34,131 nt of DNA, taken from Pseudomonadota bacterium. GTDB taxonomy: Bacteria; Pseudomonadota; Alphaproteobacteria; Sphingomonadales; Sphingomonadaceae. The notes under the pieces were generated by a model that saw only the letters and a list, made by a program, of their open reading frames with translations, did not search any database and was not told the DNA's origin. Positions 1-15,277 of the stretch are shown here, one piece after another. Every line of letters starts with the position of its first letter. The stretch's first letter is position 1. Location of the stretch: contig JAFEEX010000054.1 of assembly GCA_018240895.1 (NCBI GenBank), forward strand, positions 142-34,272. Reading direction: 5' to 3'. A program made the translations under genes and the position numbers.

Positions 1-501
1 GGTGCGCAGCGCCGGGCGGATCGTCCAGTCGAGTAGCTCACGCTTCTGCTGGAGCGACAGCGGCCCTTCGATCGTAAACATGTAAACGTCGGAAAGCGGC
101 GTGGAGATCGGCGCCAGACCGCCCGTCACCGATGCGGGTAGATCGCCCATCACGCCTGACAACCGCTCGGCGACCTGTTGGCGCGCCCAATAGATGTCGG
201 TGCCATCGGTGAAATCGATGGTGATGTCGGCGATGGCATATTTGGCCGCTGAGCGCAGGATCGCCTGATTGGGGATGCCGAGCATCTCCTGCTCGATCGG
301 CGTGATGACCCGGCTTTCCACTTCCTCCGGCGTCATCCCGGGGGCTTTCAGGATCAGTTTCACCTGTGTCTGGGCGATGTTTGGATAGGCGTCGACCGGC
401 AAGTTGACGAAGGCCCATATCCCTAGCCCTGCCGTCACAGCGGCGAGCAGCAGGACGAGCAGGCGGTAGGACAGCGCGGTGGCGACGAGCGAACGCAGCA
501 T
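1..501 (-). CDS. Heavy-metal RND efflux pump inner-membrane subunit (CzcA/CusA type), N-terminal part
   Basis: The first 167 codons of an inner-membrane proton/metal antiporter of the HME-RND family; the gene continues past the left edge. The reading begins MLRSLVATALSYRLLVLLLA and has one membrane helix at about residues 11-32. The periplasmic start of the porter domain follows, with LPVDAYPNIAQTQV, GMTPEEVESRVITPIEQE, FTDGTDIYWARQQVAERL and KRELLDWTIRPALRT, all typical of CzcA/CusA. Such pumps move cations such as Zn, Co, Cd, Cu or Ag out of the periplasm through a tripartite channel. The start lies 9 bp after the stop of the adaptor gene, so the two are surely co-transcribed. The metal cannot be told because the transmembrane charge motif is outside the window. 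No outer-membrane channel gene is visible here. The family call is firm. Confidence 0.9.
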   Translation of the reverse strand, partial: MLRSLVATALSYRLLVLLLAAVTAGLGIWAFVNLPVDAYPNIAQTQVKLILKAPGMTPEEVESRVITPIEQEMLGIPNQAILRSAAKYAIADITIDFTDGTDIYWARQQVAERLSGVMGDLPASVTGGLAPISTPLSDVYMFTIEGPLSLQQKRELLDWTIRPALRT

Positions 502-510
502 CGGCCGGGC

Positions 511-1620
511 CTAGCGCGCCGCGGCGAGCGCCTTGAGCGCGCTCGTGCCGGAGGTCACCACCTGTTCACCGGGCTTCACGCCCGAAAGCAGGACGATCCG
601 GCCGTTGCTGGCCGTTCCGCTCGTCACGGGGCGAACCGCGTAACCGCCCTGCGCTGCCACGAATACGGCCGACCTGCCGTCGATCATTGTGACGGCGGTC
701 TCCGACACGCTGACCGCGCCCGCCGGTGCGGGACCGGAAATCACGATGCTGGTCGCCCGGCCCGCGACGACGCCTGGCCCTGCCGGGATTTCCGCCTTGA
801 GGCTGGCCGAGCGCGTTGCGGGATCGATCGTCGAACCGACGGCGATAATCCGGCCGGAAATGTCAGGTGGCAGATGCACGGTCATGCCAAGCCGCACCTG
901 ACCGATCAGCCGTTCGGGCAGTTGCCCGATGACTTCATAGCGGTTTGCGGCATCGATCACATAAGGCGCGGTGGTGCCGTCGACCGGATTGCCTGTCTGG
1001 ATGGCCGCGCTGGTCACGCGGCCCGCGATCGGCGCGGTCAGCGTATAGGAGCCGCTGCCGCCATGGCCGCCCACCATGCGCAGGATACGCGCCTTTTCCG
1101 ATACGTCCGCATTGCTCTCGGCGGCGATGGCGCGCGCCTCGTCCGCGCGGGCTGGAGCGATGATGCCCTCCCGGCTGAGCTGCGACAGGCGCGCCGCATT
1201 GGACTGCGCAACGCCCGCACGCGCATGGGCGCGGGTGAGGTCCGAGCCGAGCGTCAGCACTTCGCGACTGGCGACGGTTGCAAGCGCCTGTCCCTGCCGC
1301 ACGCTGTCTCCTTCCACCACATACGTCCGGGTGACGACACCGGGGAAGGTCGCGGCCACCGCCACGCGGGCGTTGGCTGGAGGCTGGATCACCGCTGGAA
1401 TAGTGACGAGCGGGGCTTCCTCGGCAACGGTCGCGGCGGTTAGACGAATGCCCATTTGCGCCGCGCGCTTTGCATCAACGACCAACACCCCCGCGGCAGT
1501 CTGCGCTTTATCGGCAGGCGCTTTCGCGGCGGTGGGTTCGGAATGCGGCGCAAGCCACCAAAAGGCCGCCAAAGCGAGCGGAACCGCCACGCCTGCAATC
1601 GGATAATATCGTCTGGACAT
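511..1620 (-). CDS. RND efflux periplasmic adaptor subunit (CzcB/CusB-like membrane fusion protein)
   Basis: A 369-residue adaptor that bridges the inner-membrane RND pump to an outer-membrane channel. An uncleaved or signal-like hydrophobic helix lies at about residues 5-25. A lipoyl/barrel-sandwich half (VAATFPGVVTRTYVVEGDSVRQGQALATV, with its return half near TAPIAGRVTS) flanks a helical hairpin rich in Ala and Arg at about residues 125-180. The C-terminal beta domains end with ...GEQVVTSGTSALKAL. It sits directly upstream of the CzcA-like gene (9 bp gap) and downstream of the two-component genes on the same strand. A repeated TGAC-N7-TGAC element lies 23 bp before the start. No good Shine-Dalgarno is seen, and a GCCTAGCC element lies only 7 bp before the ATG, so a leaderless message is possible. 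No His-rich metal tail is visible, so the substrate is undetermined. Confidence 0.88.
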   Translation of the reverse strand: MSRRYYPIAGVAVPLALAAFWWLAPHSEPTAAKAPADKAQTAAGVLVVDAKRAAQMGIRLTAATVAEEAPLVTIPAVIQPPANARVAVAATFPGVVTRTYVVEGDSVRQGQALATVASREVLTLGSDLTRAHARAGVAQSNAARLSQLSREGIIAPARADEARAIAAESNADVSEKARILRMVGGHGGSGSYTLTAPIAGRVTSAAIQTGNPVDGTTAPYVIDAANRYEVIGQLPERLIGQVRLGMTVHLPPDISGRIIAVGSTIDPATRSASLKAEIPAGPGVVAGRATSIVISGPAPAGAVSVSETAVTMIDGRSAVFVAAQGGYAVRPVTSGTASNGRIVLLSGVKPGEQVVTSGTSALKALAAAR

Positions 1621-1627
1621 GCCATCC

Positions 1628-1661
1628 GGCTAGGCGGCGAGTCTGACGGAACCCTGACGAG
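1628..1661 (-). promoter_or_regulatory. Direct-repeat operator, copy 1, upstream of the RND adaptor gene
   Basis: On the plus strand the element reads CTGACGGAACCCTGACGAG (1643-1661), with TGAC half-sites at 1644 and 1655 (11 bp period). Read in the direction of the gene it is CGTCAG-N5-CGTCAG. Closely related copies lie upstream of the cytochrome b, VIT and katG genes. Tandem half-sites one helical turn apart are what OmpR/PmrA-type regulators bind. Downstream lies GCCTAGCC (plus-strand 1628-1635), at exactly the spacing seen in copy 2. Confidence 0.7.
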
Positions 1662-1684
1662 ACAGGCGACAGGTCAATCGGCAG

Positions 1685-2701
1685 TCAGGGTTCGGGGAAG
1701 CGCAGTATCAATTCATGGCGATCGGGATCGGTCTCGAGCGTGCCTTCGTGCGCGGCCATGATCCGCTCGACGATGGCGAGGCCAAGCCCAGCGCCGTCCT
1801 TGCTGGCATGATCGGCGCGGCGATGGCGTTGCACGAGATTGCGTAGCCGGTCTGGCGGCAGGCCAGGCCCTTCGTCACGCACGCTGATGCTTGCACCCGG
1901 ACCAACAAGCACCTGGATGGCGCCGCCGGCCGGAGTCACCCGCACGGCGTTCTCGATGAGGTTGCGCAGCGCCGCCGAAATCGCCTCGCGCCGACCCCGC
2001 GTGACGGGCGCGTGAATGCCAGTCACGAGTTCAATGGTCTTGCCTCCGGCAATGATGGCCGGTGCGGCCGCCCCGACGACATCGCTTGCCACATCGCTCA
2101 GCGATATCTGCGCCAGCGGAATCTGGGCGACTGCATCGGCATCGATCTGCGCCAGCAGCATGAGCTGATCGATCAGCCGACGCATTGCCGCGACATCCTT
2201 TTTGAGCCGCTCCGCATCGTCATGCTCCAACCGATCGAGTTCGAGGGACAGCAAGGCGAGCGGTGTGCCCAGTTCGTGCGCGACATCGGCGGCGAAGGCT
2301 TCCTGGCGCTTCGCCGCTTCGTCGAGGCGCGCGAGCAGGTCGTTGACGGCGCTAGTGAAAGGCAGCGCTTCGGTAGGCATCTGCGAATTGTCGATACGGA
2401 AGCCGCGCTCATGGCCTTGCACCGCCTCGATCTCCGCCGCTGCCTCTTCGAGCGGTCGGAATGCCTGGCGGATCACGCGAAGCACAAGCACGGTAACGGG
2501 GATCATCAGAATCGCCACCGGCAGCGCAACATGCTCAAGCATTTCGCGGCTGGCGCGCGCCATCGCCGCTTGCGCATCGAGATGGGCGAAGGTGAAACTG
2601 TAGAAGAAGACGACAGCAGCCAGCAGCAGGAAGGTGCCGACCAGACCGATCAGGCCCAGGCCGCGTTTGAGGCGTCGCGATACGGATCGGCGATCGGTCA
2701 C
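1685..2701 (-). CDS. Sensor histidine kinase of a two-component system
   Basis: A 338-residue membrane kinase. Two transmembrane helices (about 14-36 and 57-78) enclose a periplasmic loop of only about 20 residues. A HAMP-like linker (RPLEEAAAEIEAVQG) follows, then the dimerisation/phosphoacceptor helix FAADVAHELGTPLALL with His142, and the ATPase domain with the N-box LRNLIENAVRVTP (about 246-258), G1 DEGPG (276-280) and G2 GAGLGLAIV (303-311). The start overlaps the stop of the response-regulator gene by 4 bp, so the two are translationally coupled. The tiny periplasmic loop argues against a folded ligand-binding domain, so the signal is probably sensed in the membrane or through another protein. 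From its neighbours, metal or envelope/redox stress is the likely input; this is inference. Confidence 0.92.
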   Translation of the reverse strand: MTDRRSVSRRLKRGLGLIGLVGTFLLLAAVVFFYSFTFAHLDAQAAMARASREMLEHVALPVAILMIPVTVLVLRVIRQAFRPLEEAAAEIEAVQGHERGFRIDNSQMPTEALPFTSAVNDLLARLDEAAKRQEAFAADVAHELGTPLALLSLELDRLEHDDAERLKKDVAAMRRLIDQLMLLAQIDADAVAQIPLAQISLSDVASDVVGAAAPAIIAGGKTIELVTGIHAPVTRGRREAISAALRNLIENAVRVTPAGGAIQVLVGPGASISVRDEGPGLPPDRLRNLVQRHRRADHASKDGAGLGLAIVERIMAAHEGTLETDPDRHELILRFPEP

Positions 2702-3375
2702 GCGCCATTGTCCTTCAGCATATAGCCAACGCCTCGAACGGTATGGAGCGCGCCGGTGACGTGAGCATCCTCCAGCTTGCGCCGCACCCGCGAGATCGTG
2801 GCCTCGATAGCATTGGGCGTCACAGGATCGCTGAAACTATAAAGGGCATTCTCAATCACGGCGCGATGCACGACCGTTCCCGCGTGCCGCATCAGCAATT
2901 CCAGAAGATCGGCTTCCCGGCGCGACAGATCGATCTCCTGATCGCCAGCGCGGGCGGTGCGGTTGGCGACGTCGAAATATAGTCGTCCTACCTCGATCAC
3001 CGGCTGTATCCGCACGCCGGGCCGCCGTAGCAGCGCGCGGATGCGCGCTGCAAGTTCATCGATCTCGACCGGCTTCACGAGATAGTCATCCGCTCCGGCA
3101 TCGAGGCCCGTGATGCGATCCTCCAATGCCCCGCGCGCGGTCAGCATGATCGCGGGCGGCATCTCGTGATATTTTCGGCGGCTCGTAAGCCAGTCGGTTC
3201 CGTCTCCATCGGGTAGCCCAAGGTCGAGCACGATCGCGTCATAGGTTGCGCCGCCCATCGCATCCTCGGCCGCTGTAAGGCTATGGGCGACATCACACAC
3301 GAAGTTCCGGCGCTGGAGGCCGTCTGCGACCAGCGCTGCCATTCGCGCATTATCTTCGATGACGAGAAGACGCAT
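2698..3375 (-). CDS. OmpR/PhoB-family response regulator
   Basis: A 225-residue transcription factor with a receiver domain (acidic pocket at Glu7/Asp8, phosphoacceptor Asp51 in IVLDLGLPDGDG, Thr79, Lys101 in YLVKPVE) and a C-terminal winged-helix domain (about 128-222, with SRREADLLELLMRHAG and the recognition region NAIEATISRVRRKL, ending VRGVGYML). All the residues needed for phosphorylation are present. It is the first gene of an operon with the histidine kinase. Winged-helix regulators of this class bind two tandem half-sites spaced about 11 bp, which fits the CGTCAG-N5-CGTCAG elements found upstream of four genes in this window. No good copy of that element precedes this gene, so autoregulation is not evident. 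Confidence 0.93.
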   Translation of the reverse strand: MRLLVIEDNARMAALVADGLQRRNFVCDVAHSLTAAEDAMGGATYDAIVLDLGLPDGDGTDWLTSRRKYHEMPPAIMLTARGALEDRITGLDAGADDYLVKPVEIDELAARIRALLRRPGVRIQPVIEVGRLYFDVANRTARAGDQEIDLSRREADLLELLMRHAGTVVHRAVIENALYSFSDPVTPNAIEATISRVRRKLEDAHVTGALHTVRGVGYMLKDNGA

Positions 3376-3449
3376 GAATCACTGGAACCTTCGAGGGAGA
3401 TGATGATCGCTGGCCATGATCCGTTCTAGCAGGGGGCCGTCAGAAGTCT

Positions 3450-4139
3450 TCAATCCTTGTCCTCGTGATGTTCATGGGCGCCATCGCGCATATGCGGTGT
3501 GAACGCGGTCGGCTCGCTCCGAAGGATCAGGATCACCGCCAGGATGATGGTGGCCGCGCCGACCAGCAGCGCAAGTGCTCCGGGCGCCCGCGCGTCACGA
3601 GTATCAGGATGAAGACCGGCTCTCTTGCGGCCGGTGACCATCGCGCGAACCAGATTTTCACGAGTGAGAAACGACATCAGGACAACGGCGCCGACATGGA
3701 GGGCGACGAGCGCCAGCAAGCCATAGGCAAGCGTTTCGTGGAAATCCTTGTCGAGCTTGTGCGCAGCGACGCTAACACCGCTCCAAAGGACGATTCCGGT
3801 CAGGCCAAGCAGGGCGAGGACGGCGATCGCTCCGAGCGGATTGTGTCCGACGGAGCGTTCCGGACGGCCGGCGAACAGCTCGCGCACATGCGAGCCGATC
3901 GCCGTCGGTTTGATGAAACGCGCAAAACGGGCATGTTCGCCGCCGACCAGGCCCCAGACCAAGCGAAACGCCAGCAGCACAGCGGCGCACCATCCTGCCA
4001 CCATATGCCAACTGGCGATCGGGCTGTCGTCTTCGGACGATAGAAAAGCCGCCAGAATGGCCAGAACGAGCAGCCAATGGAACAATCGCAGCGGTGCGTC
4101 CCAGACCTTCAACGTGTCCGCCTGAGCGAGATTTGTCAT
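3450..4139 (-). CDS. Cytochrome b561/HupC-type b-type cytochrome
   Basis: A 229-residue integral membrane electron carrier related to the cytochrome b subunit of Ni,Fe-hydrogenases and to cytochrome b561. It has four core hydrophobic helices, and the candidate haem ligands are His21 (LRLFHWLLV), His45 (ASWHMVAGW), His134 (DFHETLAYG) and His148 (ALHVGAVV). A fifth helix at about residues 187-206 precedes a tail rich in His, Asp and Glu (HMRDGAHEHHEDKD), which may bind metal. No hydrogenase or dedicated c-type cytochrome gene is adjacent, so its partner is unknown. A TGAC-N7-TGAC element lies 39 bp upstream, linking it to the two-component regulon. The Shine-Dalgarno region AAGGAAG sits next to and partly inside a stable hairpin. 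Confidence 0.85.
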   Translation of the reverse strand: MTNLAQADTLKVWDAPLRLFHWLLVLAILAAFLSSEDDSPIASWHMVAGWCAAVLLAFRLVWGLVGGEHARFARFIKPTAIGSHVRELFAGRPERSVGHNPLGAIAVLALLGLTGIVLWSGVSVAAHKLDKDFHETLAYGLLALVALHVGAVVLMSFLTRENLVRAMVTGRKRAGLHPDTRDARAPGALALLVGAATIILAVILILRSEPTAFTPHMRDGAHEHHEDKD

Positions 4140-4145
4140 ACAATT

Positions 4146-4164
4146 CTTCCTTCCCGAAGGAAGG
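4146..4164 (-). promoter_or_regulatory. Leader hairpin with UUCG tetraloop overlapping the cytochrome b ribosome binding site
   Basis: In the mRNA sense the leader contains CCUUCC-UUCG-GGAAGG (plus-strand 4149-4164). This is a 6-bp stem closed by a C(UUCG)G tetraloop, one of the most stable RNA hairpins. The 3' arm overlaps the purine-rich ribosome binding site GGAAGGAAG, which ends 6 nt before the ATG at 4139. The structure could limit ribosome access or stabilise the message 5' end. The fold is directly visible; its role is inferred. Confidence 0.5.
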
Positions 4165-4197
4165 GCTAGGCAGATTGTCTGACCGAATCCTGACGAG
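4164..4197 (-). promoter_or_regulatory. Direct-repeat operator, copy 2, upstream of the cytochrome b gene
   Basis: The plus strand reads CTGACCGAATCCTGACGAG (4179-4197), with TGAC half-sites at 4180 and 4191, again 11 bp apart and in the same orientation as the other copies. In the direction of the gene it is followed by GTCAGAC-N5-GCCTAGCC; the GCCTAGCC (plus-strand 4164-4171) lies at the same distance as in copy 1. Confidence 0.7.
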
Positions 4198-4206
4198 AAC
4201 GAGGGG

Positions 4207-4908
4207 CTATACGACCGTCCCGAACAGCCGCCCGATCCCTGCTGTTGCCGCCATGGCGAGCGCCCCCCAGAATGTCACCCGCAAGACCGAGCGCACCGGC
4301 TGCGCGCCACCGGCCCATGCGCCGAGCGCACCGAGCAGTATGAGGAACAGCAATGTCGCGGCGATCTCGATCGGCACGAGACTGGCGCGCGGCGCGACAG
4401 CGACCAGTGCCAGCGGCATGAGCGCGCCCGTACTGAAGGTCGCCGCGGAGGTGAGCGCCGCCTGGAGTGGACGGGCGGTCACGACTTCGGAAATGCCAAG
4501 TTCATCGCGCGCATGGGCGCCCAGCGCATCGCTGGCCATGAGCTCATCCGCCACGCGAAGCGCCAAATCCTTGTCGAGCCCGCGCGCCACGTAAATCTCG
4601 GCCAGTTCATTGCGCTCAAGGTCTGGTTGACCGGCCAACTCGCCGCCTTCTCGGGCGAGATCGGCTTTCTCCGTATCGGCCTGCGAACTCACCGACACAT
4701 ATTCCCCGGCGGCCATGGACATCGCGCCCGCGACCAGCGCTGCGGCGCCGGCTACCAATATTCCTGACTTTTCGGCTCCCGAAGCGGCAACGCCGACGAT
4801 CAAGCTAGCGGTGGACACGATCCCGTCGTTGGCGCCGAGTACAGCCGCGCGCAGCCAGCCGATGCGTGACACCGCATGACGCTCGGGATGGGATCGCAAT
4901 CTGCTCAT
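4207..4908 (-). CDS. VIT1/CCC1-family metal (Fe2+/Mn2+) transporter
   Basis: A 233-residue membrane protein of the vacuolar iron transporter family, which moves Fe2+ or Mn2+ across membranes. It shows the family's first-helix motif LGANDGIVSTASLIVGV (Asp28) and the helix-2 end GAMSMAAGEYVSVSSQAD (Glu69). An acidic cytosolic helical segment (about 79-140) is where the family binds metal, and three further hydrophobic helices follow in the C-terminal half. The start at 4908 is chosen because GAGGACATA precedes it; the frame is open 20 codons further upstream, but that stretch carries the operator and promoter. Iron or manganese removal fits the adjacent peroxidase and metal pump genes. Confidence 0.88.
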   Translation of the reverse strand: MSRLRSHPERHAVSRIGWLRAAVLGANDGIVSTASLIVGVAASGAEKSGILVAGAAALVAGAMSMAAGEYVSVSSQADTEKADLAREGGELAGQPDLERNELAEIYVARGLDKDLALRVADELMASDALGAHARDELGISEVVTARPLQAALTSAATFSTGALMPLALVAVAPRASLVPIEIAATLLFLILLGALGAWAGGAQPVRSVLRVTFWGALAMAATAGIGRLFGTVV

Positions 4909-4964
4909 TATGTCCTCGCAAAGCGTTGGGTGGTTGCCAAACTTTCCTGACTGAACCCTGACGA
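4887..4964 (-). repeat. Duplicated promoter-leader-start block, copy at the VIT gene
   Basis: This block aligns without gaps to 8903-8980 over 78 bp with 13 mismatches by eye (about 83% identity). It covers the operator, the leader, the ribosome binding site GAGGACAT and the first codons of the VIT gene (MSRLRSHP here, MSKLRSHH there). Conservation is highest over the operator and the start of translation and lowest over the spacer between. Confidence 0.8.
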
Positions 4965-4965
4965 C
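4947..4965 (-). promoter_or_regulatory. Direct-repeat operator, copy 3, upstream of the VIT transporter gene
   Basis: The plus strand reads CTGACTGAACCCTGACGAC, with TGAC half-sites at 4948 and 4959 (11 bp period). The gene-sense sequence continues GTCAGGAAAGTTTGG, identical to copy 4 upstream of katG. The element ends 38 bp before the ATG. Confidence 0.7.
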
Positions 4966-5100
4966 CAATATCGTCCATTGGCATGGACCAGGTGGGCGCC
5001 AGCGCGACAGTCCTGGTCGTCATCTCATCGGAGTTACGCCCCTCGTCTGCCTGATGCGCTTCGAGGGCATGGATCTGTCGCTCGGACTGTTCACATCGTG

Positions 5101-6336
5101 TCAGCCAATAAAAATCATCAGCCACGCCGCGCCGATGACCAGTAACTGGGCGGGAATGACGCGGACGACAAAGGCTCGTGTTCCTACCGTTGCGGAAAAG
5201 AAAATCTTGGCGAGGGTGCTGGTGGTACAGGCGGTCAGGACCGGGAGGACGGCCTGTGAGTGGGGCATCGTGCCGTCGGCCACTTGTGCCGCGATCGAAA
5301 TCACCGCGGCATGAACGTCCAGCACCCCGCCGATCGCGGCCACGGCGAGGAGCCCGACATCCCCGAACCAGGCTCTGAGGGCCGCCGCCGATATCAGCAT
5401 GATCGCCACGGTCGCGGCAAAGGTCAGCGCCATCAGCAGATTGAAGGATCTGCTCATTCTTGGTGGCTCGACGGCAACCTCCCGCCAGGCCGAGAGGGTC
5501 AACCATCCGCCCGACAAAAGTGCGGCCAGCCCGGCTGCGCCCACCGGCAGGATGGTGGCAAGAAAGGTGCGATGGTCCGTCGCCTCGATTACAACGGCCA
5601 TTTGCGCATAATTGGCGACGGTCGACAGAACCGCCGCCGCGGCACCCGCCGCGACTGAGGCGGGATTGGCGCGAACCCAGGCACCCATGGCCCCGATAGT
5701 TGCCGAGCTGGAAACGAGCCCCGAGATGAGGCCTAGTGCGGGCACCCCCAGCCGCGCATCCAAAAGCCGCGTGGCCAGTTGGCCCAGCGCATTGATCCCG
5801 AGGACCATGACGACGACCATCCAGATCGAATGGAGGTTGAGCGCGTTGAATGGTCCCAGTTGCCGGTCCGGCAGCATTGGCAGCACAATCAGGGTGGCGC
5901 CGGCGATCAACAGGACGTCAGCGGTCTCGTCTGCGCTGATCGTCTGATCGACGAAGCGATGGAGCGGATCGCGGGCTGCAAGCATGATCGCGATCAGCAC
6001 CGCAAGGGCTCCTGCCAGCAAGGGCGCAGTTACCGCGAGGGCTCCGAGCAGCGTAGTGGCGACGAGGGTAACTTCCGTGGTTATGCCGGGATCGATCGCG
6101 TTGCGCCTGCGCCAACTGCTCAGCAGGGCCAGCGCGGTCATGCACAGCATCACAATCGCGATCATCCACTGCTGCGGCATCAGAGCTGCACCACAGCCCA
6201 GTAAGGCAGCGATCGTGAAGGTGCGCAGCCCCGCTGCGGCCGGACGGTGGACCTTGCGCCGCTCGCGCTCCGCTCCGATCAACAGGCCGATGCCCAGCGC
6301 AACCGGGAGGTGGTGAATGAGGCCGACGTCGTCCAT
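5101..6336 (-). CDS. MgtC/SapB-DUF4010 family integral membrane protein
   Basis: A 411-residue, very hydrophobic protein. The N-terminal part has the MgtC/SapB signature (LPVALGIGLLIGAERERR at about 10-27, then GLRTFTIAALLGCGAA). The rest matches the DUF4010 layout, with TAPLLAGALAVLIAIMLAARDPLHRFV, GLISGLVSSSATIGAMGAW (about 203-221), NYAQMAVV and a C-terminal half with VGLLAVAAIGGVLDVHAAVISIAAQVA. About 12 transmembrane segments are likely. The molecular function of this family is not established; links to divalent cation or stress physiology are suggested but unproven. It lies between the VIT gene and katG on the same strand. No copy of the direct-repeat element precedes it. The ribosome site TAGGAG is about 13 nt from the ATG, slightly far. 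Confidence 0.85.
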   Translation of the reverse strand: MDDVGLIHHLPVALGIGLLIGAERERRKVHRPAAAGLRTFTIAALLGCGAALMPQQWMIAIVMLCMTALALLSSWRRRNAIDPGITTEVTLVATTLLGALAVTAPLLAGALAVLIAIMLAARDPLHRFVDQTISADETADVLLIAGATLIVLPMLPDRQLGPFNALNLHSIWMVVVMVLGINALGQLATRLLDARLGVPALGLISGLVSSSATIGAMGAWVRANPASVAAGAAAAVLSTVANYAQMAVVIEATDHRTFLATILPVGAAGLAALLSGGWLTLSAWREVAVEPPRMSRSFNLLMALTFAATVAIMLISAAALRAWFGDVGLLAVAAIGGVLDVHAAVISIAAQVADGTMPHSQAVLPVLTACTTSTLAKIFFSATVGTRAFVVRVIPAQLLVIGAAWLMIFIG

Positions 6337-6453
6337 GGACAGGGTTCTGTGCTCCTACGCGCCGAGCTAGAGGCAAGCACTTCAAAACCCCTCGCCACGA
6401 TGCACTGACAATCAACTCGGATCACTCGGTGGCGGCTGGCCACGGGAGGATCG

Positions 6454-6488
6454 GGAGCGGCGGCGCCAGGGGGCAACGCCGCCGCTCC
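6454..6488 (-). terminator. Hairpin terminator candidate downstream of katG
   Basis: A perfect 12-bp inverted repeat, GGAGCGGCGGCG / CGCCGCCGCTCC, surrounds an 11-nt loop, 27 bp past the katG stop. No T-run follows on the katG strand, so it is either a high-GC terminator or an mRNA-stabilising 3' structure. Confidence 0.6.
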
Positions 6489-6515
6489 ACGTCCAACCAA
6501 TAGCTAGAAGGTCGC

Positions 6516-8717
6516 CTAACTACGGTCGGCGTTCATGACCTTGGTCCAGGCCCGCACGAAGTCGTCCACAAACTTCTGCTTCGCATCGTCCGAGGCATAG
6601 ACTTCGGACACCGCGCGCAGCTCTGAATTGGAGCCGAACACGAGATCGACCGGGGTGGCCGTCCACTTCGCGGCGCCGGACGCGCGGTCCTTGCCTTCGT
6701 AGAGCCCCGGCGAGCCGACCGACTTCACCCAGACCGTGTTCATCGACAGCAGGTTGACAAAGAAGTCGTTGGACAGGTTGCCGGGGCGAGCGGTGAAGAC
6801 ACCATGTCGAGTGTTTCCGGCATTGGCGCCGAGCGAGCGCATACCACCGACGAGTACCGTCATTTCGGCGACCGTCAGGCCAAGGCTATCGGCCTTGTCG
6901 ACCAGCGATTCAGCCGGGCCGAGATCGGCCCTGGCCGAATAGTAGTTGCGGAATCCATCGGCCTTCGGTTCGAGGAAGGCGAAGGAGGCAACGTCGGTCT
7001 GTGTCTGCAATGCATCGACCCGGCCCGGCGTGAAGGGGACCGAAACCCGCTGTCCTGCCCGATCCGCCGCCTGCTCGACAGCGGTGTTCCCGCCCAGCAC
7101 GATGAGATCAGCCAGCGACACTTGCTTACCGTCCTTGCGGCCCTTGATGAAGTCCGCCTGGATGCGCGTGTAAGCCGCCAGCACCTTCTTCAGCTCTGCC
7201 GGATCGTTGACCACCCAATTGCGTTGCGGGTCGAGGCCGACGCGAGCGCCATTGGCGCCACCGCGGCCATCTGTGTCCCGGTAGGTCGAGGCCGAGGCCC
7301 AAGCCGCACGCACCAGTTCGCCGGTGGAGAGGCCGGAAGCGACGATCTTGGCCTTGAGCTGCGCGACATCGTTATTGTCGATCATCGCATAGTCAGCCTT
7401 GGGCAGCGGGTCTTGCCAGACGAAGGTCTGGTTCGGGACGTCCTTTCCGAGATAGCGGGTCTGCGGCCCGACGTCGCGGTGGGTCAGCTTGAACCAGGCG
7501 CGAGCGAAGGCGACGGCGAATTCTTCCGGATGCTCGCGCCAGCGCGAGGTGATCTTCCGGAAGCCCGGATCTTCCCGCATCGCGATGTCGGTGGTGAACA
7601 TGATCGGCGCGTGCGTTTTGCCCGCGACATGGGCGTCGGGCACCAGGGCCGTCGCTGCCGGGTCGCTGGGCACCCACTGCACCGCGCCGGCGGGGCTCTT
7701 GGTCTTCACCCAGGTGAAGCCGTAGAGGTTGTCGAGATACTGCGTGGTGAAGGTGATCGGATTGGCCGACCATGCGCCTTCCAGGCCGCTGGAGACCGTA
7801 TCTTCCGCATTGCCCTTACCGCATTTGTTGGCCCAGCCGAGGCCCTGCTGTTCGATCGGCGCGACGCCGGGATCGCCGCCGACGCAATCATCGGGTTTAT
7901 GCGCGCCATGCGCTTTGCCGAAGGTATGGCCACCAGCGATCAGCGCGGCGGTTTCCTCGTCGCTCATTGCCATGGCTCCGAAGGCACGGCGAATATCAGC
8001 CGCCGCCGCCAACGGATCAGGATTACCGTTCGGACCTTCGGGATTGACGTAGATAAGACCCATCTGTGTCGCTGCCAGCGGTCCGCGAAGATTACCCTTC
8101 TCGTCCCGCCGTTCGTCCATCATCATCTTGGTTTCCGGTCCCCAGAAGACGAGGTCCGGCTGCCAGGCATCGACGCGGCCGCCCGCGAAGCCGATGGTCT
8201 TGAAGCCCATATCCTCTAGGGCGACGTTGCCGGTCAGAACCATCAGGTCGCCCCAGGAGAGCTTGCGGCCATATTTCTGCTTGATCGGCCAGATTAGCCG
8301 GCGCGCCTTGTCGAGGCTCACATTGTCGGGCCAGCTATTCAGCGGCTCGAAACGCTGCTCGCCACCACCGGCGCCGCCGCGGCCGTCCCCGGTGCGATAG
8401 GTGCCCGCACCATGCCAGGCCATGCGGATGAAGAAGGGGCCATAATGCCCATAATCCGCAGGCCACCACGGCTGCGAAGTGGTCAAAACCTTGCGGATGT
8501 CGGCTTTGACCGCATCGAGATCAAGCGAGGCGAATTCCTTCGCATAGTCATAGTCCGCACCATAGGGATTGGATTGCGCTTCGTGCTGACGCAACGACCT
8601 CAGATCGAGGCTTTTGGGATACCATTCCTTGGCCGTCGGTGCCGCGCTTTGGGCGAAGGCGGCCGGCGAGATCGCCATGACTGCTATCGCCAATAAAGAT
8701 ATTGTTGTCCTACGCAT
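6516..8717 (-). CDS. katG: Catalase-peroxidase with an export signal
   Basis: A bifunctional haem enzyme (733 residues) that removes hydrogen peroxide. The distal triad is Arg98, Trp101, His102 ([14 protein letters not shown]). The Trp-Tyr-Met adduct residues are Trp101, Tyr223 ([12 protein letters not shown]) and Met249, and the proximal His264 lies in [13 protein letters not shown]. All are offset by six from the M. tuberculosis enzyme. A second, haem-less domain fills the C-terminal half, as usual. Unlike most KatG, it begins [23 protein letters not shown], a clear Sec signal with cleavage after AFA, so it should act in the periplasm. The start at 8717 has AGGAGG five bases upstream. The frame stays open upstream to 8945 through a relic of other genes, but that extension would bury the signal peptide. 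It ends in a hairpin. The direct-repeat element lies about 246 bp upstream, beyond the relic. Confidence 0.96.
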
Positions 8718-8836
8718 TAGTCCTCCTGTTGTGGTTGAAGAAGTGGGAGTCCCGTGGACGGTTGGGCCGCCCGTGCCGCACGACAGCAGGCGCCGCCATA
8801 CAAAATCGGAATTAGGGGAGGGGATGACGCGACCGT

Positions 8837-8927
8837 TCATTGGGCCGGGGATTTCAGGTAGGCGGTCAGCGCCGCGCGATCGGCGGGTTTCGACGGACCT
8901 ATGATGGGATCGCAGTTTGCTCATCAT
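8837..8927 (-). pseudogene. Chimeric gene relic: VIT-like 5' end joined near a cytochrome c-like 3' end
   Basis: After the duplicated operator/leader, an ATG at 8924 preceded by GAGGACATG opens a VIT-like start (MSKLRSHH), but homology to the VIT gene stops after about eight codons. In another frame of the same strand, codons 8899 to 8837 read [20 protein letters not shown] and then a stop. This closely resembles the C-terminal helix of small c-type cytochromes. The simplest reading is that a deletion removed the body of one or more genes between the promoter and katG, leaving both stubs. The VIT stub is well supported; the cytochrome c assignment rests on about 18 residues and is tentative. 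Confidence 0.45.
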
Positions 8928-8980
8928 GTCCTCACAAGGCGGCATGGGGATTCCAAACTTTCCTGACGGAACCCTGACGA
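8903..8980 (-). repeat. Duplicated promoter-leader-start block, copy upstream of katG
   Basis: This is the partner of 4887-4964, aligned without gaps over 78 bp with 13 mismatches. It brings the operator, the GAGGACAT ribosome site and the first VIT codons to a position about 200 bp ahead of katG. Confidence 0.8.
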
Positions 8981-8981
8981 G
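8963..8981 (-). promoter_or_regulatory. Direct-repeat operator, copy 4, upstream of katG
   Basis: The plus strand reads CTGACGGAACCCTGACGAG, identical over all 19 bases to copy 1, with TGAC half-sites at 8964 and 8975. Its orientation points toward katG. A divergent membrane-protein gene starts about 100 bp away on the other side and could share control. Confidence 0.7.
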
Positions 8982-9084
8982 CCGTATCGTTCAATCATGT
9001 GGGCAACATTCGGGATGTAAGCCGACTTCTTGTCGGTCAGCATCGGAGCTTGAATTGGCGGGGATTTCCAATTCTAGCCGGATC

Positions 9085-9690
9085 ATGACTTCCTTCCTCC
9101 TCTTGTTCCTGATCGTTTTGGGCATCAACCTCCTGCCTGCCTTCGGACCACCCACCTGGTCGATCATCGTCTTCTATGGTCTAAACAGTGATCTGCCGAT
9201 CGCATCGATCGTCATCGTCAGTGCGCTTGCCGCCGCCTTGGGGCGGCTGTTGCTCGCCCATAGCTTCCGGTTTCTCGGCGGCCGCCTACCGGAAAAACAG
9301 AAGCGCAATCTCGGCGCTGCGCGCGAAGCGCTAGAAGCGCGGCCGCGCAATATGATCCTCGGGCTTGGTTTGTTTGCTCTGTCGCCCTTGCCATCAGCGC
9401 AATTGTTTGCCGCGGCGGGACTGGCAAAGGTACGCCTTCTTCACTTCACTGCCGCGTTTTTCGCAGGCCGCCTCGTCTCCTATTCGATCTACGCGGCGAC
9501 CGCTAAGGGGCTCCGCGGAACCAGTCTCGGCGATTCATTCCTGGAAACGCTCAAAAGTCCCTGGGGCATCGCACTCCAGCTCGGAATGATCGGCGTAGTC
9601 ATCCTGCTCGCGCAAATCGACTGGAGCAGATTCTTCCACGAGGATCACGACCAGGCATCGTCTCAGAACGATGTCAGCGAGCGCCCCTAA
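9085..9690 (+). CDS. Small VTT/DedA-like integral membrane protein, function unknown
   Basis: A 201-residue hydrophobic protein with about five membrane segments. It starts MTSFLLLFLIVLGINLLPAFGPPTW. Internal motifs (ALGRLLLAHSFRFLGGRL, then LGLFALSPLPSAQLFAAAGLAKVRLLHFTAAFFAGRLVSY) have the organisation of VTT (SNARE-associated/DedA) or related small export-like families: a re-entrant Pro-rich segment followed by a Gly/Ala helix with a conserved Arg. The C-terminus is acidic and soluble. I chose the start at 9085 because the longer open frame (from 8917) reads back through the operator and leader of katG and gives a non-hydrophobic tail. No strong ribosome site is seen. It is divergent from katG, and the intervening operator may serve both. 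I do not assign a substrate. Confidence 0.6.
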   Translation: MTSFLLLFLIVLGINLLPAFGPPTWSIIVFYGLNSDLPIASIVIVSALAAALGRLLLAHSFRFLGGRLPEKQKRNLGAAREALEARPRNMILGLGLFALSPLPSAQLFAAAGLAKVRLLHFTAAFFAGRLVSYSIYAATAKGLRGTSLGDSFLETLKSPWGIALQLGMIGVVILLAQIDWSRFFHEDHDQASSQNDVSERP

Positions 9691-9724
9691 ACCTTGGACG
9701 CGCAAGACGGCTGAATAGCGTAGA

Positions 9725-10012
9725 TCATCCAGCGGTGTTCGAATGAGTCCCCAGCACCCGCGCGAAGGCCGCCACGCCGAGGGTTTCGATCATCTCCTGA
9801 GCATAGTCGCCCTCGAACAGCTCGGTCTCGAGTGTGCCCCAGTTCACGAAGATGCCGAACTTCTGGATTTCGGCGAATGTCTCGCTCCAGCTCTTCTTGT
9901 CCTTAATGGCTTTGATCACTGCGTCGGTGTCGTCACCGCCAGAGGCCCCGTCGATGATCCGAACGAGCTTGTACGCTTTTGCCGAACGCCGCCTCCGTCT
10001 CGCCTGACCCAT
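9725..10012 (-). pseudogene. C-terminal remnant of a possible OLD-family (TOPRIM) ATP-dependent nuclease
   Basis: About 95 codons on the minus strand read as plausible protein: KAYKLVRIIDGASGGDDTDAV, DKKSWSETFAEIQKFGIFVNWG and TLETELFEGDYAQEMIETLG, ending shortly after. The phrase GIFVNWGTLETELFE resembles the segment in the C-terminal TOPRIM half of OLD-type nucleases where a short strand precedes the HTLE(V/Y)DL motif. No ATPase domain, Walker motifs or upstream part is present; the fragment runs straight into the start of the divergent ABC gene. It is therefore a truncated leftover, perhaps of a defence gene. The match rests on memory of the family pattern and could be wrong. It is not a complete gene. 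Confidence 0.4.
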
Positions 10013-10032
10013 AGCATTAGGAGTCCCCGCCA

Positions 10033-11340
10033 ATGGCCACCATCCTTGCTCCCCATCCGCTCGTCGAGGTCGATGGACTGCGTCATTATTATGGTTCCGC
10101 CCCGGGCGGTCATCTGGTGCTCGATGACGTCAATCTGACGCTCGTCGAGAATGAGATCGTTGGACTGCTCGGCCGCTCGGGATCGGGCAAGTCGACCCTT
10201 CTGCGCTCGATCGCGGGCCTCATCCATCCGCGCGAAGGCGAGGTGCGCTTCATGGCCGATGAAACCGGCCGGGCGCCAACGGTCAGCATGGTGTTCCAGA
10301 CGTTCGCGCTCTTCCCCTGGCTCACTGTCCCCCAGAATGTCGAGTTGGGGCTGGAGGCGCAGAAGGTGCCGGCCGAGGAGCGTCGCACCCGCGCGCTCGC
10401 CGCGATTGACCTGATCGGGCTCGACGGGTTCGAGAACGCCTATCCCAAGGAGTTGTCGGGCGGGATGCGACAGCGTGTCGGGCTAGCCCGCGCGCTGGTC
10501 GTCAATCCGGCGCTGCTACTGATGGACGAACCCTTCTCCGCGCTCGACGTCCTCACCGCCGAGACGCTCAGGACCGATCTGCTCGACCTCTGGTCCGAAG
10601 GGCGGATGCCGATCAAGGCGATCCTGATCGTCACCCACAATATCGAGGAGGCCGTGCTGATGTGCGACCGCATCCTCGTCTTCTCCTCCAATCCGGGTCG
10701 GGTTGTGGCCGAGATCAAAGTCGACCTGCCGCAGCCGCGTGATCGCCTCGACCCACCGTTCCGCGCGCTCGTCGATGACATCTATGCGCGGATGACCGCT
10801 CGGCCGACCTCGGTGCAGCCCGCCCGCGATGGTTTGTTCCCCGGAACCGGTATCGCGATGGTGTTGCCCCGCGTCTCGACCAACAGCCTCGCCGGCCTGA
10901 TCGAGGAAGTGGACGGTACGCCGTTCGAGGGCCGCGCCGGCATGGCCGAACTTGCCGACTCGCACCAACTCGAAGTCGACGAGTTGCTGCCGATGGCCGA
11001 GACCCTTCAGCTCCTCCGGTTCGCCGAGCTGCAGGGTGCCGATATCCTGCTCACCTCGTCCGCGCGCCACTATGCCCAGGCTGATGTCGATCAGCGCAAG
11101 GCGATGTTCGCTCAGGCGCTGCTGGCCCATGTTCCGCTCGTCCAGCATATCCGACGCATCCTCGACGATCGCGCCAGCCACACCGCACCCGCGCGTCGGT
11201 TCCGCGATGAGCTCGAGGATCATATGTCGCCCGATTATGCCGACGAGACGCTGCGCACCGTGACCCTCTGGGGACGCTATGCCGAGATCTTCGCTTATGA
11301 TGAAGGCAGCGACCAGTTTAGTCTTGAAGACCCAGAATGA
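10033..11340 (+). CDS. NitT/TauT-type ABC transporter ATP-binding protein with C-terminal AAA-associated domain
   Basis: A 435-residue ATPase of the nitrate/sulfonate/taurine importer class. Residues 1-250 are the nucleotide-binding domain, with Walker A GRSGSGKST (about 47-55), Q-loop VFQTFALFPW, signature LSGGMRQRVGLARAL, Walker B LLLMDEPFSALD and switch VTHNIEEA. A C-terminal extension of about 150 residues (from PGTGIAMVLPRVSTNSLAGLIEEVDG to the end) matches the AAA-associated domain carried by a subset of these ATPases. AGGAG lies ten bases before the ATG. In related loci the next gene is a fused permease. Here a new ATG overlaps the stop (ATGA), but its frame breaks within 50 codons, so the ATPase appears orphaned. 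The substrate is unknown. Confidence 0.85.
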   Translation: MATILAPHPLVEVDGLRHYYGSAPGGHLVLDDVNLTLVENEIVGLLGRSGSGKSTLLRSIAGLIHPREGEVRFMADETGRAPTVSMVFQTFALFPWLTVPQNVELGLEAQKVPAEERRTRALAAIDLIGLDGFENAYPKELSGGMRQRVGLARALVVNPALLLMDEPFSALDVLTAETLRTDLLDLWSEGRMPIKAILIVTHNIEEAVLMCDRILVFSSNPGRVVAEIKVDLPQPRDRLDPPFRALVDDIYARMTARPTSVQPARDGLFPGTGIAMVLPRVSTNSLAGLIEEVDGTPFEGRAGMAELADSHQLEVDELLPMAETLQLLRFAELQGADILLTSSARHYAQADVDQRKAMFAQALLAHVPLVQHIRRILDDRASHTAPARRFRDELEDHMSPDYADETLRTVTLWGRYAEIFAYDEGSDQFSLEDPE

Positions 11341-11480
11341 TCGCCCGCCTTCTGCTTCTCGGTATCGGGACCATTTGGGTCGCAAGGTTCCGGCAATTAT
11401 GTGTCCGCCATCCCCACGGCGCTGGCAGTCGCACCCACACCGATAAGGGCGCCGCCGTTCAGGACGCGACAATCCGATAG
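11337..11480 (+). pseudogene. Probable 5' stub of an ABC permease gene
   Basis: An ATG overlaps the ABC ATPase stop in the ATGA arrangement typical of coupled operon genes. It opens 47 codons whose first 18 (MIARLLLLGIGTIWVARF) are hydrophobic like the first helix of a permease. The rest (QLCVRHPHGAGSRTHTDKG...) is polar and unlike any transporter, and then a stop follows. This suggests the permease was cut at about 11390 by a rearrangement. The evidence is the overlap and the hydrophobic start only. Confidence 0.3.
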
Positions 11481-11859
11481 CGCTGCCTTTTCAAGGTAGA
11501 ACGGGGAAATCCAGTAGTCGTTGTCACCACTTAAGCGCCCGCCAGGCACATCGTAGTAGCCATAGCGGTAGAAACTTGCACACGGCGGAATTTTCTCCGG
11601 CCCATTTCTGCTACTATGCATCCCGGAAAGTCAGAAAAACGCGCTGGCTTCCTTATCGTAATGTGGAGATCGGCCTATGACGGCGTAATTCGGTGTTTTT
11701 CGGTGATCGACGGACCTAGAGTAGTATGAGGTGCGATACATATTCGTTATGTTTATCCAGGGCGGGGCGCCATTTTTTCCAGGGTAGTTGATCGGTTGGC
11801 AGGATGGCCAAAGCGCTGTGCTGCCGGCGGCACGCTCCCGTCTTATCATTGCAGACGCT
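11481..11859. other. Gene-poor junction with partly lower GC
   Basis: No convincing gene. On the minus strand one frame is open from about 11849 to 11397 except for a single in-frame stop at 11631-11633. Its conceptual product (rich in Tyr, Asn and Pro, e.g. FYRYGYYDVPGGRLSGDND) is not one I recognise. Base composition at about 11590-11790 is clearly less GC-rich than the flanks (runs such as cattttttcc and ggtgtttttcgg). It separates the stress/metal block from the rhamnose locus and looks like recombination debris. I see no transposase, terminal repeats or tRNA. Confidence 0.4.
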
Positions 11860-14800
11860 TCACTGCGCCAGTTGATCCATCAGCGTCACCGGGCCGATCA
11901 ATCCTGACTTCTGCAACGGGGCATCGGCGCGGTAGGTTTCGAGGGTGGTGTGGGTCAGCCGCGTCGCGCCGGGTTGGGCATCGCCGATCAGGCGGTTGAC
12001 CCACAGGGTGCCGATGCGAATTTCAACCGTGTTGCGTCCACCTCTGGTCACGGCACCGATGTCGACGCGGTAGGGTTTGTGCCAGGCCGACCCTGCAAGC
12101 TGGCCGTTGACGCGGACCTCTGCCACTTCGCGGACATTGCCCAGGTCAATCTTCAGGGGCTGGCCGGGTTTCCAGCCCGTTGGTGCGGTAAACTGGCTTG
12201 AATAGGTTACTTGCCCGGAAAAATACCTGACGCCTGGATCGGCGTGTTCATTGAGCGGAATGAGCTTGGGAAGCGTGATGGATGCGGGTGCGCCGCGTCC
12301 GGACTGGAAGACGAGGGTCCAGGGCGAACCGAGCGTTGCCACGCTGCGCCATTGCGGCGCGGATAAATCAAGCGCGGCGGCGGTCGCGGCCTTGCGAAAT
12401 ACAACGTGAACCGCTTCCTCTCCGTCCAGCGCCAGCGGTACAATCGTTTCGCCATTTTCGCTGCGAAAGCTGACGGGTTCGATCCGCCCGGTTTCCGCGC
12501 GCCACACTTCAGGTTGTTTTCCGGTGATACGGAAGTGCGCTTCCACGGTTTCGGGGCGATCCTTGCGGTTGACGATGAAATAGCTGTCACCATCGCTCAG
12601 GCGGCGGTGAACAAAAGGCAGATCGCTGTCAGCCCTGGTGCCGGTGAAGCGCAGATCGGGATTGATCCCGATCGATGCCATGGCGGGTTCGATTGCCGCT
12701 GCCGCGATGACCTGTCCCTTGCCGATCCGGGTGCCTGGCCCGCCCGGCCACAACGTCTTGACCAGGGCAGACCACTGCGCCGGATCATCCGCAAGGCTGG
12801 GGCTGGATGAGGGGGGCAGGCCAATCACGGTTGCCCCGCCCTGGGCCAGTTCCGCCAGTCGCTTCAGCACCGGCAGGGTCATCCGCTCACTGCTGCCGCC
12901 CAGGTACAGGGCCTTGTAGCGGGCACCGCCCACACTGACCAGTTCATCACCTTCGTTGCGCAGTGCCTCGCTCAGAGCGTCGGGGCTGACGAAGTCATAG
13001 GCGTAGGATTTTGGCGCATTGGCAACGGGGCTATCGCCATAAAGCCCGGTCAGCGGCGCTTCCTCTCCATAGAAATAGGCGACATCGGCAAAATTGCGGC
13101 CTTGCTGCAGCATGAAACTGTTGCGGCTGATATAGTCGATCCACGGCTTTGCCAGTTCGGCCCAGCCTTCGTGCCGGTTGAAATATTGCCCGAAGATCAT
13201 CAGTGACAGGCCGGGTTCACCGGCTTCGTCCGGGCTGTGGACCGAGGTGTGGATCACCGGCCGGTTTACCCCGGTTACGAATTCAAGATCGATCGCGTGC
13301 TTCAGGGTGGGGGGGCTATCCGCCCAATAAGACAGCGCCGAAGTCATCGATTCGGCCGCGACCAGGTTCTGGCCATAGACGTGCGCGATAGAGGCCGCGC
13401 CTTTCATGTCCGCCAGATAGCTGGGGTTGGGCGCGCCGCCCTGCGGGAAAGTCCACAGCGCCGCCATCGGCACATCGGTAAAGCGCCGCATCGCCATGTC
13501 GTCACCCAGTGACGGACGGTGGTCTTCAAGCGCTTCGCCATAGACTTTCAGGCCATTGCGGTGGGCAACGTCGGCAACGGTGCCATAATGCTCGCTCGCC
13601 ATCAGATCGGCCAGGGTGCGGCGATAATCGTACAGGAACCTGTCGCTCGCTTCGCGGCTGGTGATTACGGTGCCGGTCAGCGCGGGAAGCCACGGCGTGG
13701 GATCGTAACCGCGCAGGCGTTTGAACTGGTCGATCAATTTCGGGGTCCAGTTCGCGGCGCCGACTTCGATCGAATCGGTCAGGATCGCGCGAACGCCCTT
13801 GCCGCCGATCAGATCGGCACCGGCGGCATCGCGGTACATTGCGATATAGTGGTCAAGATATCCGCGCACCGCCTCTCCATCGAACTTGTCGACTTCAAGA
13901 CCGGTCGCTTCGGCGGGGGCGGGATGGTTGGTTGTGCCCAGCAATGAATAGCCAAGGCGGACCACTTTCCAGCTGCCTTTTGGCGGGGTCCAGTCCAGCG
14001 TTCCGTCCGGCTTGACCCGATTGGTCAGATCGAAGACTTGGCCCGGCGCGGCCGCGGGGGCGGTGGTATCGCTCAGACCAAGCTTGTAATAATCCTGTTC
14101 GATTTCGAACCCGGCCTTCGCTTCAAACCGGTCCACTTTGGGATCGGCTGAAAGGCTGAACCGGGCGACGCGCCAGGTGCCGCCGGGTTGGGCGGCAAAA
14201 AAGCCCGGCGGGACAATTCCGGGCGCGGGATTGCCCAGGTTGGCCCCGGCGGGATTGCCAGGCTTCAGCACGATGCGGAACAGCCGCGCCGTCGCCGGGG
14301 CGAAACTGATTGTCGTTGGCACCTGCGCCGCCGTCAGGTTGCCAAGCACGGTCCAGGCCTTGCCATCGGGGCTTGCCTCGAGCTGCGGTTCAAGCGCGGC
14401 ACCGGAGAAAGGCGTCTTTGCCCCCGGCACGAACAGGGTTGCGCTGCGCACGGTCACCGGCTTGCGGTAATCAAGCGTGATCGTGGCCGGAGCTTGGGCA
14501 TTGCCGCGCGGCAGATCGATCCCGCTGGCCAGGCTGGCGTCGGTCAGCGCGGCGGCATCCAGCCCTTTGCCCGCGCCGTCGCTGGCCTTGGGCAGGGGCA
14601 AGGCGCGCAGGGCAACGGGGACTGCAAAAACCGCGATAGTGCCGGAATAGACCGGCGGCGCCTTGGGAGGTTCGCTGCTGAGCCCGCCCAGCGGGTCAGA
14701 AAACGGCATATCCTGAAATGCCCCGGTCACCTCTGGCAGCGGGGTGAGTTTGCCCGAAAAGCGCTTGCCGCCGATCAGCGGCGTTTCGCTCCAGACCACT

Positions 14801-15237: not shown

Positions 15238-15277
15238 TCCCCTGTCCCCTTCCACCCGGTTGATTCCATTCGGTCGT

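Follow-up and report, generated by a model that had tools for sequence, protein, structure and literature searches.

A 34,131-nucleotide stretch of DNA from a bacterium of the Sphingomonadaceae (assembly GCA_018240895.1, contig JAFEEX010000054.1, positions 142 to 34,272; hereafter the window) carries four nearly identical direct repeats of the form CGTCAG-N5-CGTCAG, and the locus raises the question of what reads them and whether the genes behind them share one response. A preliminary description of this DNA had proposed that a response regulator (RR) encoded among these genes at 2698-3375 binds all four elements. Our analysis indicates that the locus is, with high probability, a self-contained two-component regulon, in which the RR and its sensor histidine kinase (HK) would act by the mechanism set out below. 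The basis for this is the element itself, its place and orientation, its conservation, its co-occurrence with the RR, the geometry of the promoters as drawn by comparison, and a chimeric leader upstream of katG.

Elements and genes of the window

The exact form GTCAG-N6-GTCAG occurs four times in the window and nowhere else in it (expectation 0.07, standard deviation 0.29, 100 shuffles). All four copies are on the minus strand, at 1643-1658, 4179-4194, 4947-4962 and 8963-8978, and stand before czcB, the operon cytb561-RR-HK, the VIT gene and an exported katG, respectively. The near-identity, the 11-bp spacing and the common orientation that the preliminary description had noted are borne out. 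The genes and boxes are as follows (ORF, open reading frame).

511..1620, minus strand: czcB-like periplasmic adaptor (Pfam HlyD_D23; ORF map)
3' of czcB and running off the window start, minus strand: first part of a CusA/CzcA-family RND gene (NCBIfam, on the RND of locus L031)
1643..1659, minus strand: putative RR box, C-GTCAG-N6-GTCAG, of czcB and its RND adaptor operon (exact match; 30 distinct site sequences before czcB across loci)
1685..2701, minus strand: sensor HK with a very short periplasmic loop and a conserved E-x3-H before the second membrane helix (Pfam; alignment of 40 HKs)
2698..3375, minus strand: OmpR/PhoB-family RR, PmrA-like, the proposed reader of the box, with recognition helix PNAIEATISRVR (Pfam; PmrA/BasR as nearest structures; association of helix and element)
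3450..4139, minus strand: cytochrome b561-type membrane protein, Ni_hydr_CYTB, here cytb561 (Pfam)
4179..4195, minus strand: putative RR box of cytb561-RR-HK (exact match; same place in many relatives)
4207..4908, minus strand: VIT-family metal transporter, start MSRLRSHPERH (Pfam; Shine-Dalgarno-like sequence; box 38 nt upstream)
4947..4963, minus strand: putative RR box of VIT (exact match; same place in many relatives)
6516..8717, minus strand: catalase-peroxidase KatG with a signal-peptide-like N-terminus, chosen start 8717 (NCBIfam catalase/peroxidase HPI above cut-off)
8963..8979, minus strand: putative RR box of katG (exact match; identical leader in L031-L034)

With up to one mismatch to CGTCAG-N5-CGTCAG, five matches were found in the window against an expectation of 0.22; the additional one, at 10124-10140, falls within an ABC-ATPase ORF on the opposite strand and was dismissed as chance. 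With three mismatches the pattern falls to chance level (42 found, 41.98 expected), so that the signal is carried by the near-exact copies alone. We took CGTCAGGN5GTCAG as the strict form of the element. In the 3.17-Mb draft genome to which the window belongs, CGTCAGGNNNNNGTCAG occurs at four places, which are the four window elements, and the strict form is accordingly confined to the window rather than scattered through the genome without promoter bias. The exact form GTCAGN6GTCAG was found at eight more places in the parts of this genome that were covered (L002, L003, L006, L014, L017, L028, L175 and L176), where simple arithmetic gives a chance expectation of about 6; on crude gene calls, promoter-like placement was not seen at any of these eight sites, all of which overlap open frames of more than 100 codons. 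A wider regulon in this genome was also considered and rejected: the relaxed motif (up to two mismatches) matched 18 places against 7 for a reversed control, and the only one-mismatch place besides the four window sites (C48) overlaps open frames on both strands.

The gene identities proposed earlier (RND adaptor, b-type cytochrome, VIT transporter, exported catalase-peroxidase) agree with Pfam and NCBIfam. The RR has a PF00072 receiver and a winged-helix PF00486 (Trans_reg_C) domain above cut-off, VIT scores 219.1 bits with PF01988 (cut-off 28.1), and KatG scores 1047.4 bits with the catalase-peroxidase HPI model TIGR00198 (cut-off 770.25). The RND gene of the window is truncated by the window start, and the family call was made on the full-length RND of the near-identical locus L031 (TIGR00914 CusA/CzcA, 983.7 bits, cut-off 701.45), where the adaptor is followed by the RND, a DUF3240 gene and an outer membrane efflux protein; among solved structures, ZneA is the nearest RND. 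Gene starts needed refinement: the VIT gene kept its identity and lost its earlier start, which we place at 4908 instead of 4968, and for katG the most likely start is 8717, which gives the signal-peptide-like N-terminus. By position, the cytb561 element would also serve the RR and HK, that is, autoregulation.

Beyond these genes, the window contains an ABC-ATPase-like ORF with a long C-terminal extension (10033-11340) and a 1185-residue ORF (11860-15417).

Co-occurrence with the regulator and promoter geometry

A scan for relatives of the RR gave 71 loci (L031-L101). Exact elements were present at all 35 close loci (L031-L065, at least 59% identity) and at none of the 36 distant ones (L066-L101, at most 47% identity); both groups include near-copies, and the genomes with G handles partly repeat named genomes. 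Many of the close loci recur as near-copies in several species, which suggests transfer. Among 298 genomes of the family, 35 had an RR match at E <= 1e-50, the threshold used for family genomes and plasmids. By hand count, the strict site was found in 30 of these 35 and in 89 of the 263 genomes without the RR, and 44 of the 63 strict sites in the RR-bearing genomes had an RR within about 10 kb. The remaining 19 amount to about 0.5 per genome, near the background of about 0.4 in RR-less genomes (a Poisson estimate from 89/263). Since the strict sites cluster at the RR and the rest are near background, the regulon can be called local, as had been supposed. An identical strict site in four RR-less genomes (G061, G133, G230 and G075) was put down to probable coincidence; in the two loci that were read, L166 and L170, it lies next to or within an ORF of the plus strand, and the minus strand, on which it stands, has no called gene immediately downstream.

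The nearest solved structures to the RR are those of PmrA/BasR, although its score with the PmrA equivalog NF007928 (189.9 bits) does not reach the cut-off of 330. PmrA contacts bases through Asn188, Asn196 and Arg210, with Thr187, Val192 and His195 (PMC4660055); its sites are pairs of hexamers with a 5-bp gap, to which it binds head-to-tail, and the -35 element falls on half-site 1 (PMC4660055, PMC3973317). In the RRs that accompany the element, the recognition helix reads PNAx[ED]xxxSRxR: Asn188 is kept, and Ser-Arg replaces His-Asn at 195-196. We compared 59 distinct RRs, including 11 hand-picked from the 36 distant loci and without L065, which was too short. An exact element lay within 3.5 kb of 44 of the 46 RRs with the helix signature and of one of the 13 without it, and this lone exception, L064_42, shares its locus with a signature-bearing RR. 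On the RR tree the signature requires three changes, against 11.9 in shuffles (a tree with long branches, arbitrarily rooted). Regulators of the OmpR/PhoB type bind tandem half-sites spaced by one helical turn, and the 11-bp direct repeats here co-occur with an RR of this type.

Plasmids and rearranged loci bear on the same pairing. Three of 72,556 plasmid records had an RR match (by typing, two conjugative plasmids and a mobilizable one), and each of them has elements. In pDB-2 of Sphingopyxis sp. DBS4 (L174 13691-13900 and 15780-15880), HK and czcB are separated by three unrelated genes; an intact element stands 22 nt before czcB, and a lone GTCAG half-site is seen at the HK end. When plasmids were searched with positions 1-9100 of the window, the 20 records listed of 178 all covered katG only. 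The system is also present in contigs labelled Candidatus Marinimicrobia (metagenome-assembled genomes; L062 and L063), which may reflect mis-binning or transfer. At L137 (3949-4575, by Pfam) and L138 (7482-8033, by eye) a different cytochrome b561 follows an element, in the position that the usual cytb561 has at other loci.

Comparison of the promoters adds a feature that lies outside the search pattern. From 150 promoter-placed sites we obtained 56 non-redundant ones (flank identity below 70%), leaving out sites at a projected distance of more than 150 nt, sites with short flanks and those classed as "other". The half-sites are invariant because the pattern imposes this; the flanking C and G and the downstream A were unselected. 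An A stands 12 nt past the element (+12) in 50 of the 56 promoters, a T or C precedes it in 50 of 56, and the other conserved columns are a C before the first half-site (45/56), a G after (46/56) and a T at position 8 (34/56). The held-out sites of class "other" comprised 26 distinct sequences, split by their flanks into 18 and 8. The A at +12 is present in 18 of 18, among which L137-L139 are mutually close, L062 and L063 are close, L150 is close to logo sites, and no clear gene start follows the sites of L146 (at 736, in RR orientation) and L160 (minus strand). The other eight, minus-strand sites within the coding start of the DUF3240 gene, have a T there (8/8) and were discarded as coding coincidences.

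The conserved A is likely, judging from these alignments, the -11A of a -10 element. If so, the element would lie at about -38 to -23 and transcription would start near +23, a placement that, by analogy, fits a PmrA-like tandem activator. The first ATG of czcB (taken 15-40 nt after the site) follows the element by 22-23 nt in 27 of 30 site sequences, and three of the 30 show a Shine-Dalgarno-like sequence; an additional, overlapping element of L133 is counted among the 30, and the window itself, whose true distance is 22, was scored 17 on a chance out-of-frame ATG and so falls outside the 27. By comparison, VIT starts 38-44 nt past the element, with a Shine-Dalgarno-like sequence in all 10 measured (of 12), and cytb561 35-43 nt past it, with such a sequence in 11 of 17 measured (of 18). 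Because of its short distance and the usual absence of a Shine-Dalgarno sequence, the czcB mRNA is probably leaderless. For the window this predicts the following.

1627..1632, minus strand: predicted -10 region of czcB, TAGCCG (from the sequence, the 56-promoter logo, the held-out sites and the distances)
1631, minus strand: putative -11A of the czcB promoter, 12 nt past the box
at or adjoining the A of the ATG at 1620, minus strand: predicted transcription start of czcB

The same promoters bear on the explanation that the four elements are recent duplicates of one promoter, drifting without selection. The katG copy does clearly duplicate the VIT 5' region (83% identity over 78 bp); in relatives, however, the flanks of the czcB, cytb561 and VIT promoters are unrelated (the 56 sites, below 70%) and the A at +12 is nevertheless fixed, and we regard this explanation as most improbable.

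Several observations count against the RR as reader of the element. Many of the loci are near-copies spread by transfer and the loci are hence not independent, and the helix signature was tested on the alignment that had yielded it, so that kinship among the RRs could explain part of the association. Two of the 46 signature-bearing RRs, L153 and L161, lack an exact element within 3.5 kb (L153 has an in-frame stop in the RR, and L161 a one-mismatch site before it). Five of the 35 RR-matching genomes have no strict site, and 89 of the 263 RR-less genomes have at least one. In G114 and G296, which have no RR match, VIT and cytb561 keep their elements: in G114, IS21-type istB and transposase genes follow cytb561 (L164 7808-10152) and leave the elements orphaned, and in G296 the contig ends there. 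Finally, by eye, an A at +12 is found at 4 of 8 chance sites elsewhere in the source genome, so that for any single site it is weak evidence. Those 89 genomes would also suit a different, chromosomal regulator as the binder of the element, the local RR merely sharing its island. Against it stand the clustering of strict sites around the RR and the near-background rate of the rest, the way in which the element travels with the recognition helix, and the three plasmid loci that keep element and RR together; we consider it improbable. The contrast between close and distant loci, the helix association, the DBS4 arrangement and the held-out A at +12 support the RR at 2698-3375 as reader of all four elements, and on this comparative evidence the box is very probably its site.

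The katG leader and the peroxide arm

How katG came to stand behind the element may be read from its leader, which is composed of two segments that share 5 bp (CCATC).

8903..8980, minus strand: copy of the VIT 5' region (box, leader and first codons) fused upstream of katG (83% identity, 78 bp)
8713..8907, minus strand: native leader and initial codons of katG, preceded by the 3' end of a c-type cytochrome gene (88% identity, 196 columns, R. wittichii plasmid pIBU218)

From the element on, the leader matches the 5' region of the window's own VIT gene, first VIT codons included, and the next 196 columns match the cytochrome gene end and katG leader of pIBU218, in which katG follows the c-type cytochrome gene and no exact or one-mismatch element was found upstream of katG. 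The simplest reading of this chimera is promoter capture: a copy of the VIT promoter would have been placed in front of katG by fusion, most of the cytochrome gene being lost. From this one outgroup, the element-free state of katG appears to be the older.

A short tandem repeat in the katG leader varies in length among near-identical loci (L033, from Sphingomonas trueperi DSM 7225, and L031). An ORF upstream of katG is in frame with it in the window and is called in another frame in L031. Between katG and VIT lies a gene for an MgtC/DUF4010 membrane protein (5101-6336) with no element of its own, which may be read from the katG promoter.

Other exported proteins occupy a comparable place in relatives, export being read by eye from signal-peptide-like N-termini. 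At L158, whose RR is 49% identical, an element precedes another exported KatG (66% identical) by about 80 nt, and VIT lies further downstream. Elements precede di-haem cytochrome c peroxidases (PF03150) at L146 and L148 and, divergent from the RR operon, exported rubrerythrin-family proteins (PF02915) at L155 and L157; at L044 and its relatives the gene behind the element is ferric-reductase-like, and a TonB receptor gene comes next. At most RR loci no peroxide-type gene was found behind an element, so the peroxide arm appears optional. The earlier suggestion of one response that unites metal efflux with electron flow and the removal of peroxide from the periplasm gains weight in that distant relatives have a second KatG, di-haem peroxidases or a rubrerythrin behind the element.

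We lean slightly towards a broader picture, that of a mobile sphingomonad regulon in which one PmrA-like RR links the efflux and transport of metals with the handling of peroxide or iron in the periplasm. Its second arm would be an open slot that separate RR lineages have filled with exported proteins not homologous to one another (rubrerythrin, di-haem cytochrome c peroxidase and, at least twice, KatG), in one case through a promoter-capture fusion whose junction is readable in the window, and its efflux mRNA is predicted to be leaderless.

Proposed mechanism and known systems

In the mechanism that we propose, the HK (1685-2701) would sense a metal or metal-plus-peroxide signal in the envelope, possibly through the conserved E-x3-H at the outer end of its second membrane helix. 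The HK has two hydrophobic stretches separated by a very short loop, with E-x3-H right before the second. Among 40 aligned HKs (L159 poorly), the E is present in 38 of 38 and the H in 39 of 39 with letters there, and five more distant HKs with a larger periplasmic domain (L154-L158) keep the motif. It was not seen by eye in the second HK of L064 or in L160-L163, of which L160 and L163 nonetheless have elements. E-x3-H is a candidate ligand pair. The phosphorylated, PmrA-like RR would form a head-to-tail dimer on CGTCAG-N5-CGTCAG, covering about -38 to -23, stand in for the -35 box and bring RNA polymerase to a -10 element marked by the conserved A at +12. In this way it would activate its own operon cytb561-RR-HK, VIT, the exported KatG and the czcB-RND(-DUF3240-outer membrane factor) efflux operon, whose mRNA is predicted to start at or beside the czcB AUG. 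Binding by the RR, activation and the signal are what we infer from the arrangement; as for the inducing metal, the RND would point to divalent cations, and VIT, ferric reductase and rubrerythrin to iron.

The pair of regulator and box offers a precise and testable promoter geometry, and the regulon would link the export of metals with the removal of peroxide outside the cytoplasm. The katG leader, a chimera, provides a readable case of gene recruitment into a regulon by promoter copying, and relatives place different proteins behind the same element. In kind, an OmpR-type activator of a metal-stress regulon is known. A description of this regulator-box pair or gene set was not found in the open-access literature, which leaves most subscription-journal papers outside its scope; within it, as far as our searches go, the box, the gene set, the open peroxide slot and the captured promoter are undescribed.

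A further alternative is a metal regulon with a known box, of the UzcR or the CopR/CzcR type. Such an identity would suit the metal genes, and both RR and HK match the CopR/CopS NCBIfam models at significant E-values. The scores, however, fall short of the curated cut-offs (RR 172.1 of 279.2 bits with TIGR01387, HK 139.8 of 292.55 bits) and the box here is a direct repeat; on these two grounds a CopR/CzcR-type box was rejected, no search aimed at inverted repeats having been made. The UzcR box, given as CATTAC-N6-TTAA in a review (PMC8963506), had 5 matches with up to two mismatches in the window against 5.70 expected, none of them at 1-11800, and was rejected too. That the locus is a regulon of either type is hard to credit. 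In an RNA-seq study of nickel exposure in Sphingobium sp. ba1, an OmpR/CopS-type pair, which may or may not be the present one, was nickel-induced (PMC5557971).

Compared with CopRS, CzcRS and AgrRS, the system shares an OmpR-family RR with a kinase and metal-resistance targets, and for AgrR activation and autoregulation are described (PMC7380067); the boxes there are inverted repeats, in contrast to the direct repeat here (PMC7380067). UzcRS of Caulobacter crescentus (U/Zn/Cu) is likewise an alphaproteobacterial metal-responsive system whose regulator activates envelope genes, with a different motif and 57 binding regions as opposed to the local regulon here (PMC8963506). The RND pump resembles the heavy-metal pumps ZneA and CzcA, with TIGR00914 above cut-off and ZneA as nearest structure, and differs in the DUF3240 gene between RND and outer membrane factor. 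The likeness to PmrA/BasR of Klebsiella and Salmonella comprises the OmpR/PhoB fold, two half-sites 5 bp apart, Asn188 and the coincidence of half-site 1 with the -35 position. Unlike in PmrA, with its TTAA-type half-site, the half-site here is GTCAG, and the neighbours are metal efflux and peroxide genes.

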